64,000 bases of DNA from Nioella sediminis (lineage in GTDB: Bacteria; Pseudomonadota; Alphaproteobacteria; Rhodobacterales; Rhodobacteraceae): NCBI RefSeq assembly GCF_001879695.1, contig NZ_MNBL01000115.1:1-64000 (forward strand), written 5' to 3'. The notes under the pieces were generated by a model that saw only the letters and a program-made list of their open reading frames with translations, did not search any database and had not been told where the DNA came from. The position numbers and the translations under genes are program-made. Positions 6,606 to 24,744 of the stretch are shown here, one piece after another (the first letter of the stretch is position 1; each line of letters begins with the position of its first letter).

Positions 6606-6677
6606 GGGGAGAGGATTAGCCTATCTGCGGGGCGAAGGTCAGGGGAAATCTATCAGGCAGAATGCCCGTCACCGCCC

Positions 6678-6710
6678 GTACACCCCCCGTACACCCGCTG
6701 TACACCCCCC
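6678..6710. repeat. Three tandem 11-bp repeats (GTACACCC...)
   Basis: Units at 6678-6688, 6689-6699 and 6700-6710: GTACACCCCCC, GTACACCCGCT, GTACACCCCCC. The 11-bp period is about one helical turn, so each GTACAC faces the same side of the DNA. A fourth partial unit (GTGCAG) follows. The repeats lie upstream of kdsD (start 6605). They could be a regulator-binding array or simple slippage; nothing else in the sequence decides. Confidence 0.6.
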
Positions 6711-6758
6711 GTGCAGACAGGAGGTCGGTTTCGCCGCCTGCCGGCGTCGACCGGGGAG

Positions 6759-6906
6759 CGGCCCTCCTCAACCCCCCGCTTACGCGGGAGGCCTCGTCGG
6801 TCCGCGTTGCCACGGACATGTCGAGAGGGTCATGCGAAGGGCCGGGCGGAACCGAGGGTGGCAATGTCGGGACGCCTCCGGCGGAGGTATTTTTGCCAAG
6901 ATGAAG
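6759..6906 (-). repeat. Bipartite dispersed element, copy A (3' side of betA)
   Basis: Together with the 11-bp repeats this fills the gene-free stretch 6606-6911. Read in the direction of betA (minus strand), block 2 (6906-6869) begins 5 nt after the stop codon with TTCATCTTGGC, an A-run and a CCTCC-GCC-GGAGG hairpin. After a 53-nt spacer, block 1 (6815-6759) follows. Both blocks recur at 22267-22416 in the same order and orientation relative to the gene upstream. Block 1 (in plus-strand sense) contains a hairpin CCCGC-TTAC-GCGGG that is replaced by CCGGC-TTGC-GCCGG in copy B. Confidence 0.8.
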
Positions 6907-6911
6907 CAGGC

Positions 6912-8603
6912 TCAGGGTCGCCGGTCGGCGGCCTTGACGGTGGTCTGCCAGTCAGGGTGAATCCAAGGCTCGCGGTTGGAACGAGGCAACATACCCTTGC
7001 CGAGAATGTGGTCGGCCGCCTTTTCACCCGTCATGATCGAGGGACCATTGAGGTTGCCATTGGTGATGCGCGGAAAGATCGAACTGTCGGCGACGCGCAG
7101 GCCATCCACGCCGATCACGCGGGCTTGCGGATCGACCACGGACAGGGGATCGTCTGCCGCGCCCATCTTGCAGGTACCGCAGGGGTGGTAGGCGCTTTCG
7201 GCTTCTTCTCGGATGAACTCGTCAAGCTCCTCATCGGTCTGCACGTGGCTGCCCGGCTGAATCTCCTTGCCGCGATAGTCATCAAAGGCGGGCTGCGCAA
7301 AGATCTCGCGGGTCAGACGGATGCAGTGGCGGAAGTCTGTCCAGTCGTCGGGATGGGACATGTAGTTGAAGAAGATGTTGGGTGCGTCGTTCGGATCGCT
7401 CGATGTGAGCGTGATCGCGCCGCGCGATTTCGAGCGCATCGGGCCGACATGGGCCTGGAAGCCGTGGCCCTCTGACGGGGCGGTGCCGTCATAGCGCACG
7501 GCCATGGGCAGGAAGTGATACTGGATATCGGGATAATCGACGCCGGGGCGGGACCGCAGGAAGGCGGCGCTTTCGAACTGGTTCGAGGCGCCAAGGCCGG
7601 TATGCGTCGCCAGCCACTGAGTTCCGATGACGCCCTTGCTGATCAGGTTCCAGTATTTATAGAGCGTGATGGGCTGGGTACAGGCCTGCTGGATGTAAAG
7701 CTCCAGGTGGTCCTGCAGGTTCTGGCCGACGCCGGGACGATCGGCGATGACCTCGATCCCGTGCTCGGCCAGATGCGCGGCGGGGCCGATCCCGGACAGC
7801 ATCAGGATCTTGGGCGAGTTGATGGCGGAGGCCGCGACGATGACCTCTCGATTGGCCTTCACCACCTCGATCTTGCCATTTCGGTCGATCTCGACCCCGG
7901 TCGCGCGGCCATCCTCGATGATCACCCGGCGCACGTAGCAGCGCATCAGGTTGCAGTTGGGCCGCTTCAGCGCGGGTTTCAGATAGGCATTGGCCGCCGA
8001 CCAGCGCTGGCCCTGCCAGACGGTCTGTTCCATCGGGCCGAAGCCTTCCTGTTTTTCGCCATTATAGTCGTCGGTCAGCTCGTACCCCGCCTGCCGCCCG
8101 GCCTCGACGAAAGCCTGGAAGAGCGGGTTGGTGCGGGGGCCGCGCGTGACATGCAGGGGGCCGCTGGTGCCGCGCCAGGTGGGGTCGCCGCCATGGCCGC
8201 CATCGTGCCAGTTTTCCATACGCAGGAAATAGGGCAGCACATCGGCATAGGCCCATCCGGTCGCGCCGCTGTCGTTCCAGTGGTCATAGTCGCGCGCATG
8301 GCCGCGCACATAGACCATGCCGTTGATCGAGGAGGACCCGCCGATGACCTTGCCGCGAGGGCAGACGAGGCTGCGGCCCCCTAGATGCGGCTCGGGCGCT
8401 GTTTTGAAACCCCAGTCATACATCGCCATGTTCATTGGGTAGGACAGCGCGGCGGGCATCTGGATGAAGGGGCCCTTGTCCGACCCGCCGAATTCCAGCA
8501 CCAGCACCGTATGCTTGCCGTCCTCGGACAGGCGGTAGGCCATGGCAGACCCGGCCGAGCCGGAGCCTATGATGACGAAATCGGCCTGGCGCGCCGTTGG
8601 CAT
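6912..8603 (-). CDS. betA: GMC-family FAD oxidoreductase, probable choline dehydrogenase
   Basis: 563 residues, typical of BetA. It has the FAD-binding GSGSAGSA at residues 13-20, the GMC signature [20 protein letters not shown], the catalytic His in [10 protein letters not shown], and the C-terminal block [19 protein letters not shown]. It would oxidise choline to betaine aldehyde at the membrane for osmoprotection or choline catabolism. The usual partners betI, betB and betC are not adjacent. It is followed downstream by ProC-like and OYE-like genes on the same strand, so a broader methylated-amine or alcohol substrate is possible. Confidence 0.8.
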
Positions 8604-21794: not shown

Positions 21795-22265
21795 ATGGAA
21801 CCGCTCGCAAGCCTCACCGCCCGCTTCCCCCGCCCCGGTCGCGTCGACTGGATCGGGTTGCGCCCCGCGCGGAAGGCGACCATGCAGTCGGTCCCCCGGA
21901 TCGACATTCTCGACCATGGCCTCGCAGGCGACCACGCCCGCCCCGGAAAGCGCGCCGTGACCCTGATCCAGGCCGAACACCTGCCGGTCATCGCCGCACT
22001 TGCAGGGCTTTCGCAGGTTTCCCCCGAAACGCTGCGGCGCAACCTCGTGATCTCCGGCCTCAACCTCTCGGCCACCCGCAACCGCATCCTCACGACCGGC
22101 ACCGCCCGCCTGCGAATCACCGGCCCCTGCGCCCCCTGCTCGCGGATGGAGACGGCGCTCGGCCCCGGAGGCTACAACGCCATGCGCGGCCATGGTGGCT
22201 GGTGTGCAGAGGTTCTGACACCCGGTCCGCTCGCAATCGGGGCCATGCTCACAGTCGAGGCCTGA
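21795..22265 (+). CDS. MOSC-domain protein
   Basis: 156 residues from ATG 21795. The single MOSC fold contains LDHGLAGDHARPGKRAVTLI and the conserved Cys segment ITGPCAPCSRMETALGPGG. Family members bind molybdenum cofactor or transfer sulfur and act in molybdoenzyme maturation or N-hydroxylated base reduction. The protein is slightly shorter than YiiM. Divergent from imuB; whether the LexA box also affects it is unknown. The dispersed repeat copy B begins 1 nt after its stop. Confidence 0.85.
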   Translation: MEPLASLTARFPRPGRVDWIGLRPARKATMQSVPRIDILDHGLAGDHARPGKRAVTLIQAEHLPVIAALAGLSQVSPETLRRNLVISGLNLSATRNRILTTGTARLRITGPCAPCSRMETALGPGGYNAMRGHGGWCAEVLTPGPLAIGAMLTVEA

Positions 22266-22266
22266 G

Positions 22267-22416
22267 TTTCATCTTGGCAAAAAATACCTCCGCCGGAGGC
22301 ATCCCTTCGCCTCAAAGCAGAGCCACCGTCACACCCTGCAGACCACCCGTACCACAGTCCCGTGGCAACACGGACCGACGAGGCCTCCGGCGCAAGCCGG
22401 GGGTTGAGGAGGGCCG
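22267..22416 (+). repeat. Bipartite dispersed element, copy B (3' side of MOSC gene)
   Basis: Block 2 (22267-22305): TTTCATCTTGGC, A-run, CCTCC-GCC-GGAGG hairpin. Spacer 54 nt. Block 1 (22360-22416), 57 bp, matches copy A in inverse orientation with four substitutions. Two of these (C to G and G to C) fall on opposite sides of one base pair in the hairpin stem and preserve pairing. Same position directly after a stop codon as copy A. Confidence 0.8.
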
Positions 22417-22451
22417 TTCCCGCCGCGACCTGCCCTGCAGGGCGCAAGACC

Positions 22452-23801
22452 TCAGCCGCGCCGCAGACGCCTCAGCAAAGCCTCGGACGCATAGCCATCC
22501 GGCACCAGCCCCTCGGCGGCCTGGTATTCGCGCACTGCCTGGATCGTCAATGGCCCGACGATCCCGTCAATGCGCTCGGTGGAGAATCCCGCCGCCGTCA
22601 GGCGCCGTTGCAACTCGAACCGCTCGTCATTGGTCAGCGCCCGATCCTGCCGGGGCCAGCCGCCGCGAAAGGCAGGTCCGCCGCCGATCCGGTCGGCCAG
22701 ATGACCCACCCCGATCACATAGGCGTCCGCCGGATTGTAGGTCTCGATCACGTGGAAGTTTTCATAGATCACAAGCGCCACGCCCGTATGCCCTGCCGGT
22801 AGCAGGATCGAGGAGGGCCCGTGTTCCGGAACCAGACCGCCACCGCGCGCCAGCCGCACACCCATGGCGTTCCAATGGGCCGCATCGCGCTGGATCAGCT
22901 CACCGCTCTGCGAGAAATCGAAATCGTCCGGCAGCTCCACTTCCAGCGCCCAGGGCTGGCCGTGGGTCCAGCCGTTTTCCGACAGATACCGCGCGGTCGA
23001 GGCCAGTGCGTCAGCAGGATCATCCCCCCAGATATCGCGCCGCCCGTCGCCGGTGAAATCCACCGCATGGGCCAGGAAACTGGTTGGCATGAACTGCGTA
23101 TGCCCCATCGCCCCCGCCCATGATCCCTGCATGTGGTCGGGGGCGATATCGCCCGCCTGCAAGATGCGCAGCGCCGCCAACAGCTCGGTCTCGAAGAACT
23201 CCGCCCGGCGGCCCTCATATGCCAGCGTCGCCATCGCCTCGATGATCGGCACCGATCCGCGGAAGCTGCCATAGGCGCTTTCCAGCCCCCAGACCGCCGC
23301 CACGATCTCGGCCTCGACCCCATAGCGCCGTTCGATCGCGTCCAGCGTGTCGCGATGCTCCCGCAGGGCCGTGCGCCCGTTGGCAATGCGCGTATCCGAC
23401 GCGGCGCTGTCCAGATAATCCCACAATGTCCGCGAGAATTCCGACTGGTTGCGGTCACGCTCGATCACCCTTTCATTCAGCGTCACCCCGGCAAAGGCCC
23501 TGTCGAGCGTCTGCTGGCCGATGCCTTCCGCGCGGGCACGGCGTGAAAACTCGGAAACCCATGCCCGGAAGCCAGCGGAGCTGACCGGCTCGGCCAAAGG
23601 CGTTTCGGGGCGGGCGGCCAATGTCACCATGCGCATGGCCGGACGCAAGGACACGTCAACTGCCAGCCCGCTTGGCGTCACGCTTTGCAAACTGTCTTCC
23701 GCCGGGCGGGGCAAGGGCCGCATGGTGGCAGTGGGCGTGGCCCCGGCAGCACTTGCCGCCAGAACCAGGATTGCGGTCAGGAATAGTCTCGGCGTCAGCA
23801 T
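22452..23801 (-). CDS. Lytic murein transglycosylase (MltB-type) with peptidoglycan-binding domain
   Basis: 449 residues from ATG 23799-23801, the start that gives a signal peptide (MLTPRLFLTAILVLAASAAGA). An SLT_2 domain holds the catalytic Glu in WGLESAYGSF and the GSWAGAMGHTQFMPTSF motif. A C-terminal PG_binding_1 repeat (about 385-445) ends VPDGYASEALLRRL. It cleaves glycan strands in the periplasm. No lipobox is visible, so it is probably soluble rather than a lipoprotein like MltB. Confidence 0.88.
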   Translation of the reverse strand: MLTPRLFLTAILVLAASAAGATPTATMRPLPRPAEDSLQSVTPSGLAVDVSLRPAMRMVTLAARPETPLAEPVSSAGFRAWVSEFSRRARAEGIGQQTLDRAFAGVTLNERVIERDRNQSEFSRTLWDYLDSAASDTRIANGRTALREHRDTLDAIERRYGVEAEIVAAVWGLESAYGSFRGSVPIIEAMATLAYEGRRAEFFETELLAALRILQAGDIAPDHMQGSWAGAMGHTQFMPTSFLAHAVDFTGDGRRDIWGDDPADALASTARYLSENGWTHGQPWALEVELPDDFDFSQSGELIQRDAAHWNAMGVRLARGGGLVPEHGPSSILLPAGHTGVALVIYENFHVIETYNPADAYVIGVGHLADRIGGGPAFRGGWPRQDRALTNDERFELQRRLTAAGFSTERIDGIVGPLTIQAVREYQAAEGLVPDGYASEALLRRLRRG

Positions 23802-23955
23802 GCTCGTGCCTGTATGATTGCTTGTCCCGCAGTATACGCGCTTCCCGGTTTCGAAAGAAGCACCGGCCCCACGCCTTCGGCGGAGCCTCGCCGGCAAGTC
23901 TCTGCCAACACCGTTACCAAAAGCTGAACAGCGCGAAAGGACTTGCGCCCGCCTC

Positions 23956-24744
23956 ATGGCCGGATATCTCAGGGGAATGTCGATTGATCCTGATTCAGAA
24001 CGCCCGATCGTTTTTCTTCACCTGCCCAAAACAGGTGGTCAGACCATTCACCACAGCGTCGGCGCGCTTTTTGGGGAACGGAACATCTCGCCCTACCGGC
24101 TGCAATCCCATGTTCGGGACGGGGCGACATTTCCGCCGGAATACCGCATGCATTCGGGCCATCTGCACTGGCGCGACCTGGAAAACGTGCCCGGCGATCC
24201 GTTTTCCTTCATGGTTCTGCGAGACCCCCGTGAACGGCTTGGGTCCTTCTTCTTCTTCATGCGGGAAGAAGCACGCAGGTCGCGCGATGCCAATGGGGTG
24301 GACTCTCTGCCACCGGCGCAGCGCGCCCTGCTAAACGGTGCATCTGCGCTTTTCTTTTCCAAGGACCCGCAAATTCAGCTGGCCGTGCGGGAAAGGTGGT
24401 CCAACCTGACCCTGACCTATCTGGCCTTGCGCAGCCTGATCCGGCGCGGAACCCTCGCAGATGCCCCATTGGCCGACCTTCTGGCGTTGGCCGAGGAAAA
24501 TAGCCGCAAGCTGACCGCGATCTACCGGTTCGGAGAGTTCGAGAAGATCGAGGATGACATCGAAGCAAGTTTCGGGACACGACCGGATATCGTGACCAAG
24601 CACGCCAACCCCGGCCCGCTGGATCGCTCTCGCAGCCGCTGGCAGGCGCTTTTGGACGAATTGGACAGCGATGCGCAGCGCAGCGAGATGGAACGCCACG
24701 TTGCCGAGGATCTGAACGTGATGGAGCGGATCACCTTCCGCTAG
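23956..24744 (+). CDS. Sulfotransferase-family protein
   Basis: 262 residues from ATG 23956 (GAAAGGA about 12 nt upstream); a second ATG at 23977 has its purine run too close. The PAPS 5'-phosphosulfate loop is FLHLPKTGGQT (20-30) and the 3'-phosphate motif is VLRDPRERLGSF near residue 95. Family sulfotransferase_2-like; the acceptor (polysaccharide, lipid or other) is unknown. Its last 4 bp overlap the end of rnr, which converges from the right. Confidence 0.75.
   Translation: MAGYLRGMSIDPDSERPIVFLHLPKTGGQTIHHSVGALFGERNISPYRLQSHVRDGATFPPEYRMHSGHLHWRDLENVPGDPFSFMVLRDPRERLGSFFFFMREEARRSRDANGVDSLPPAQRALLNGASALFFSKDPQIQLAVRERWSNLTLTYLALRSLIRRGTLADAPLADLLALAEENSRKLTAIYRFGEFEKIEDDIEASFGTRPDIVTKHANPGPLDRSRSRWQALLDELDSDAQRSEMERHVAEDLNVMERITFR

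Follow-up and report, generated by a model that had tools for sequence, protein, structure and literature searches.

The first 64,000 nucleotides of contig NZ_MNBL01000115.1 of Nioella sediminis (this whole stretch is called the window below) contain two copies of a sequence made of two separated blocks, which raises the question of what kind of element this is and what it does at the ends of genes. The initial annotation had placed the blocks at 6759-6815 and 6869-6906, with inverted counterparts at 22360-22416 and 22267-22305, and had counted four differing positions between the 57-bp blocks, two of them exchanging one base pair; coordinates and counts were both confirmed, and the shuffled window gave no block matches. 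The placement directly after a stop codon holds for the genes on the block 2 side, betA/GMC (6912-8603, minus strand) and a MOSC gene (plus strand, ending at 22265), and has to be extended for copy 2, whose other end adjoins the stop of a convergent gene for a lytic transglycosylase (22452-23957, minus strand). The strand originally read proved to be the wrong one: the strand that can fold, which we term the R strand, runs in the sense of betA at copy 1 (minus) and of MOSC at copy 2 (plus). The parts of the two copies are as follows.

6869-6906, minus strand: block 2 of copy 1 (UUCAUCUUGGCAAAAAUACCUCCGCCGGAGGC...), directly after the betA/GMC stop codon (6912-6914)
6818-6868, minus strand: C-rich spacer of copy 1, sequence not conserved
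6805-6814, minus strand: hairpin H1 of copy 1, CGU[GGCA]ACG (in other copies CAU[GGCA]AUG or CGC[GGCA]GCG)
6758-6805, minus strand: long helix P1 of copy 1, with two tandem G.A motifs and a GUAA loop, including the CCCGC/GCGGG stem of the initial annotation
6731-6750, minus strand: hairpin SL1 of copy 1, UCG-A-CGCC[GGCA]GGCG-G-CGA
6670-6717, minus strand: tail of copy 1 made of 11-nt units (GGGGGGTGTAC)n, a feature of a minority of copies
22267-22305, plus strand: block 2 of copy 2, directly after the MOSC stop codon (22265)
22306-22357, plus strand: C-rich spacer of copy 2, with a C skew of +0.49 over the 55 nt preceding the core
22361-22370, plus strand: H1 of copy 2, CGU[GGCA]ACA
22370-22417, plus strand: helix P1 of copy 2, with outer pairs ACGG/CCGU instead of GCGG/CCGC
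22426-22447, plus strand: variant SL1 of copy 2, different in sequence and ending 4 nt before the transglycosylase stop codon

By searching the 3.96-Mb genome with a covariance model of the core, we found 77 copies at E<0.01, which puts the overall number at about 75. A pattern for block 2 matched 69 places genome-wide, against none for the reversed pattern. The possibility that the two blocks are independent repeats never found together was refuted, as 48 of the 69 block 2 matches lie at most 260 nt from a core (0.7 expected by chance) and the second block is present in 48 of 74 core copies. The other 21 block 2 sites have no detected core, so block 2 is also a separate module, and the family is modular. 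Alignment of 24 genomic copies extended the conserved unit by about 28 nt beyond block 1 as originally drawn, on the 6731 side, where a third hairpin lies; conservation spans from that outer end through the end of the second block, giving a core of about 92 nt within a full multi-part element of about 180 nt. Block 2 itself consists of a pyrimidine-rich start and a small hairpin. A transcript of the R strand would thus carry, in order, the stop codon of the R-read gene (if present), block 2, the linker, H1, P1 and SL1.

In this fold, H1 is a small hairpin whose GGCA loop is near-invariant across genera, on stems of CGU/ACG, CAU/AUG or CGC/GCG. P1 is a helix of about 22 positions (GCGGCCC-GA-S-GA-GG-CCnn-loop-nnGG-UU-GA-S-GA-GGGCCGC) with an invariant inner tandem (G.A in 64 of 65 copies, A.G in 65 of 65, and 17 of 17 in other genera) and an outer tandem G.A replaceable by Watson-Crick pairs on both sides. 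SL1 has the consensus UCG-A-CGCC-loop-GGCG-G-CGA. The tetraloops are GNNA, often with C in the third position beside A, and GNA triloops also occur. The stem quoted in the initial annotation keeps its pairing, not as a stand-alone 5-bp hairpin but as the centre of P1, and it reads CCCGC-GUAA-GCGGG because the folding strand is the opposite one.

The proposal of a conserved RNA structure, first made from a single compensatory pair, was borne out by covariation across 65 copies and 17 more from five other genera. Double-changed pairs numbered 9 of 30 (2.8 in shuffles) among the first 22 copies (alignment A2), 23 of 30 (14.6 in shuffles) among the 65 copies (A5), and 18 of 28 (8.4 in shuffles) among the 17 copies from other genera (A6). 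In each alignment, none of 500 shuffles, which keep the relatedness of the copies, reached the observed number; the signal was also destroyed by sliding the pair partners, and neither this control nor the independent genera are affected by relatedness. The strand is well marked too, with 114 G.U against 6 A.C cells and 280 G.A/A.G cells against 1 C.U/U.C on the R strand of the 65 copies, and the many C.A pairs of the strand first read turn into G.U on its reverse. Although the alignment was fitted to an R-strand model, its stems are nearly gap-free and the same G.A and G.U pairs appear in other genera, so that comparison among copies establishes both the fold and its strand. Two candidate structures were rejected: a fold on the strand first read, with a consensus energy for the block 1 region of -12.8 kcal/mol against -28.9 kcal/mol on the reverse and with A.C replacing G.U, and a 5-bp H1 stem (CCGUG-GCAA-CGCGG), which clashes with P1 and is unsupported, the 3-bp H1 with the GGCA loop covarying instead. 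No Rfam family (release 15) scored above its gathering threshold in the window, loose thresholds returned nothing credible (one chance match, E 1.4, near copy 1), and literature searches found no description of the element. We are almost certain that this is a real structured element family at gene ends, uncatalogued before in Rfam or the papers searched.

Dispersed intergenic repeats in bacteria are commonly taken for decaying mobile relics. When we compared the genome with that of Nioella sp. MMSF_3534, whose flanking sequences are about 94% identical, all 33 compared loci were occupied in the same place. Substitutions amounted to 3.9% in the core, 4.1% in block 2, 13.8% in the spacer and about 5% in the mostly coding flanks; the spacer inside the element diverges 3.5 times faster and so acts as a built-in control that shows selection locus by locus. 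From the difference between 3.9% and 13.8% in these two species it follows that the element is selected and vertically inherited. Standard pairing survived at 21 of the changed stem cells (at 9 through a double swap) and was lost at 7. Locus-specific variants are common to both species, so the copies are not homogenised. Mobility, as a MITE or active element, was rejected on the lack of empty sites and of a Y1 transposase: the Y1/REP transposase profile PF01797 had no match in the genome, while control genomes were positive. Viral contigs and plasmids held no copies at the sensitivity used.

The core string also occurs in Nioella ostreopsis, N. sp. MMSF_3534, N. nitratireducens and two further Rhodobacteraceae. 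Among genus-level relatives, two species carry 62-67 copies and others 14-29; outside the genus, two genomes (G236 and G271) have 13 copies each and three more have 1-2, with no core copy at E<=0.001 in 288 of the 295 family genomes searched. Several of the copies in other genera, though not all, stand at the same gene pairs as in Nioella: G271 has the loci of L058, L061, L076 and L050 between the same genes and on the same sides, G236 those of L049, L019 and L085, and G016 that of L054. Since matched mutations have kept the fold at the same gene pairs across genera, the element probably has a genuine function in terminating or protecting messages.

The 3'-end location first noted for two copies extends to large numbers of them genome-wide. 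Flanking genes were called by a codon-usage scan, which may miss short or RNA genes, and on this basis the SL1-side gene is directed towards the element in 50 of 63 copies (p=3e-6), its stop codon usually 1-9 nt away, and the block 2-side gene does so in 42 of 59 (p=0.0015), its stop codon most often about 92-95 nt before the core. Convergent junctions make up 32 of 57, and in 17 of 59 copies no gene enters the element on the R strand.

Rho loading sites are characterised by an excess of C over G. The linker between block 2 and the core keeps its length (interquartile range 56-57 nt) while its sequence turns over, with 47% C and 20% G. Comparison across loci establishes this composition: C exceeds G in 41 of 41 linkers, with a skew of +0.40 (sd 0.12) against +0.03 in other 3' UTRs at the same loci (n=137), and among 236 linker substitutions C was lost 70 times and gained 66 times, so the composition is at balance despite the turnover of sequence. 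A 78-nt window with C/G>=2 was present in 63% on R, 0% on F and 10% in coding sense controls, and predicted folding of the linker was -9.6 kcal/mol on R against -18.0 kcal/mol on F, no better than shuffled. The linker is thus C over G and weakly structured across some 60-80 nt of the transcribed strand, as in Rho terminators. Its skew holds in G236 and is weak in G271 (about 0.15) although the core is present there, so the core may serve a separate function.

On these grounds we favour, tentatively, a 3'-end or termination module whose linker resembles a Rho loading site and whose hairpins would block exonucleases, in a role like that of REP/BIME elements. We infer the action of Rho from the linker composition: the linker would load the Rho helicase, and R-direction transcription, whether from a convergent gene or antisense, would consequently end around the junction. 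After Rho termination, transcripts are trimmed from the 3' end until a stable structure is reached (PMC12350095), and P1 and SL1 would form the barrier halting 3'-to-5' exonucleases, so that the message end is fixed and stabilised. Some copies may also terminate intrinsically, at a G/C hairpin and T run further downstream. Resemblance to rut sites lies in a C-rich, G-poor stretch before the transcript end and in 3' ends that trimming leaves at stable structures (PMC12350095), but rut sites are degenerate, whereas the Nioella linker has a fixed length and is flanked by two conserved blocks at dozens of places. Several observations, the weak linker skew of G271 among them, weigh against this reading. 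The linker is equally C-rich (0.34 versus 0.34) in the 17 of 59 copies that no gene enters on the R strand, where only antisense transcription could be ended. P1 is unnecessary for termination itself, because Rho normally unwinds hairpins. Lastly, block 2 with TATTTTT resembles an intrinsic terminator on the other strand, in copy 1 only and with an unconserved T run.

One alternative is a bidirectional intrinsic terminator, with block 2 (CCTCCGGCGGAGG-TATTTTT) acting on the strand first read, the tail G/C hairpin and T run on the other, and H1-P1-SL1 merely stabilising 3' ends. A terminator-like site at 6874-6893 on the plus strand and the position between convergent genes in 32 of 57 junctions agree with it, but the T run is variable (TATTTGGGCC is common), no site was scored at copy 2, the repeat tail is found in just 17 of 65 copies, and lone block 2 often lies between co-directional genes in the opposite sense; we consider it unlikely.

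A small RNA or 3'-UTR-derived regulator is rather unlikely too. Here H1-P1-SL1 would be set free as a stable RNA, binding a protein through the tandem G.A and GGCA loop or pairing with targets, as the strong strand-specific structure, the near-invariance of H1 loop and tandem G.A across genera, and the existence of the element where no gene enters it might suggest. About 75 near-equivalent loci per genome would be unusual for a trans-acting regulator, however, and there is no Rfam match and, at either window copy, no sigma-70-like promoter (a search that did not cover other promoter types).

The structure could also work as DNA, given that C-GNNA-G and C-GNA-G loops and tandem G.A pairs are stable in DNA as well. 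The R strand would then fold as single-stranded DNA, as the domesticated relic of a single-stranded DNA transposon or as a polar chromosome motif. The GNNA tetraloops and GNA triloops suit the hairpin preferences of DNA at least as well as those of RNA for GNRA, and orientation tracks strand skew, both local (28 of 31) and contig-level (22 of 31). Against this stand the lack of a Y1/REP transposase in the genome, of empty sites among 33 loci and, at the sensitivity applied, of copies on plasmids or viral contigs, as well as orthologous copies that are old and selected locus by locus, and we regard a DNA element as quite improbable.

The skew deserves separate description. Measured in MMSF_3534 as gene-corrected third-position skew, the local excess of C falls on the R strand for 28 of 31 copies; the flanking sequences in six genomes show the same, the orientation bias by contig-level skew is 22 of 31 (p=0.03), and oppositely oriented copies 10-16 kb apart have opposite local skew as well. 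Over about 3 kb, the gene-corrected GC3 skew of a gene correlates with that of its neighbours in any orientation (G003 contigs, L131-L170), and r is about 0.3 below 3 kb, also far from elements. In the window (1-64000), GC skew flips near 18 kb and 46 kb. A local GC-skew footprint caused by the element was rejected, because neighbour-gene skew is correlated far from elements too and because orthologous genes elsewhere, including a few sampled from G008, a genome without the element, keep part of the skew; as the skew is locally correlated anyway and partly kept in orthologues, we do not claim the element as its cause. Reading the skew decay as a trace of gene-transfer agents or uptake sequences was dropped on the same grounds. 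What remains is the match of orientation to local skew. Should the G-rich strand be the leading one, the strand that folds would mostly be the one read head-on to replication. The approximately 75 modules might then carry their structured Rho-loading strand on the C-rich, putatively lagging strand and end transcription that runs head-on to replication, antisense transcription included, however the neighbouring genes are oriented. Such polar, replication-oriented termination is distinctly improbable; if true, structures encoded throughout the genome would guard against head-on conflicts. A neutral dispersed repeat whose stems are kept alike by gene conversion or template-switch mutation, as the similarity of copies within the genome and their location at contig ends might suggest, is scarcely credible, being largely refuted already by the divergence results (locus-specific variants persisting between species, an internal spacer diverging 3.5 times faster), by G.A mismatches and a G.U asymmetry that palindrome correction would remove, and by the junctions kept across genera.

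Among known systems, REP/BIME elements come closest to the module we favour, with tens to hundreds of hairpin-forming intergenic copies, often at 3' ends; the literature (PMC3733652) attributes to REPs roles in termination, mRNA stabilisation and supercoiling. The Nioella element shares the high extragenic copy number (77 copies) and 3'-end enrichment (50/63 and 42/59). REPs, however, are palindromes of 20-40 bp with a GTAG or CGTC tag and a link to Y1 transposases, whereas the aligned Nioella copies have no GTAG at the stem base and units of 92 nt to about 180 nt, and the element is multi-part, combining an invariant tandem G.A and a C-rich linker with a fold specific to one strand and orthologous loci across genera. 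It is REP/BIME-like in position and in its probable role but lacks the defining features of that family and is not a member of it. The HRC-28-1 motif of Polynucleobacter (PMC8632094) is likewise a multi-stem RNA in putative 3' UTRs with a neighbouring gene in opposite orientation, but its 33 examples lie near particular genes and end in an intrinsic terminator, as against about 75 loci per genome and a core without a conserved terminator. The HRC-8-4 motif (PMC8632094), an intergenic hairpin RNA of the same order, Rhodobacterales, is found mainly at cco operons, is intrinsic-terminator-like and forms no dispersed family. The precise strand and the same gene junctions, kept across genera, offer a comparative handle on how messages end between convergent genes in Alphaproteobacteria, and the defined fold, with its tandem G.A between conserved blocks, allows a binding protein to be looked for.

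Several variants of the modular architecture were observed. Block 2 alone occurs between co-directional genes, 30-80 nt upstream of a start codon (L272, L277, L280, L283, L284), some of these sites being preceded by GTTAACCTTAACGC or its reverse. In places, core-less block 2 precedes other hairpin arrays, and at L276, L279, L281 and L289 the array GAAGGGCC-TTCGAA-GGCCCTTG..GAAGAGGTTTCGAAACCTCTTC comes after it. At ten loci (L059, L061, L078, L174, L175, L177, L179, L189, L191, L197), an alternative upstream module replaces block 2 before the same core, consisting of a hairpin GGxCCTGT...AACAGGACC or GGCCCTGAAG...CTTCAGGGCC followed by TCTCAGC. Some cores have a GGGGTTTGGGGCTGGCCCCAAGC hairpin instead of H1, and a second sub-family in G004 (L176, L180, L184, L186, L188, L192, L196) has an TTTGGGGCTGGCCCCAAGCGG-like hairpin in its place, directly before a P1 that keeps the tandem G.A. 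Repeat tails were found in 17 of 65 copies as 11-nt units (GGGGGGTGTAC or AGGGGGTGTAC) after SL1, on the 3' side; several end by closing up as a G6...C6 hairpin followed by a T run (CACCCCCC-T-run hairpin), a possible intrinsic terminator on the R strand. The element also seems to break the draft assembly, since many contigs end inside or beside copies (in G000: C8, C9, C13, C20, C22, C24, C29, C145 and C146).
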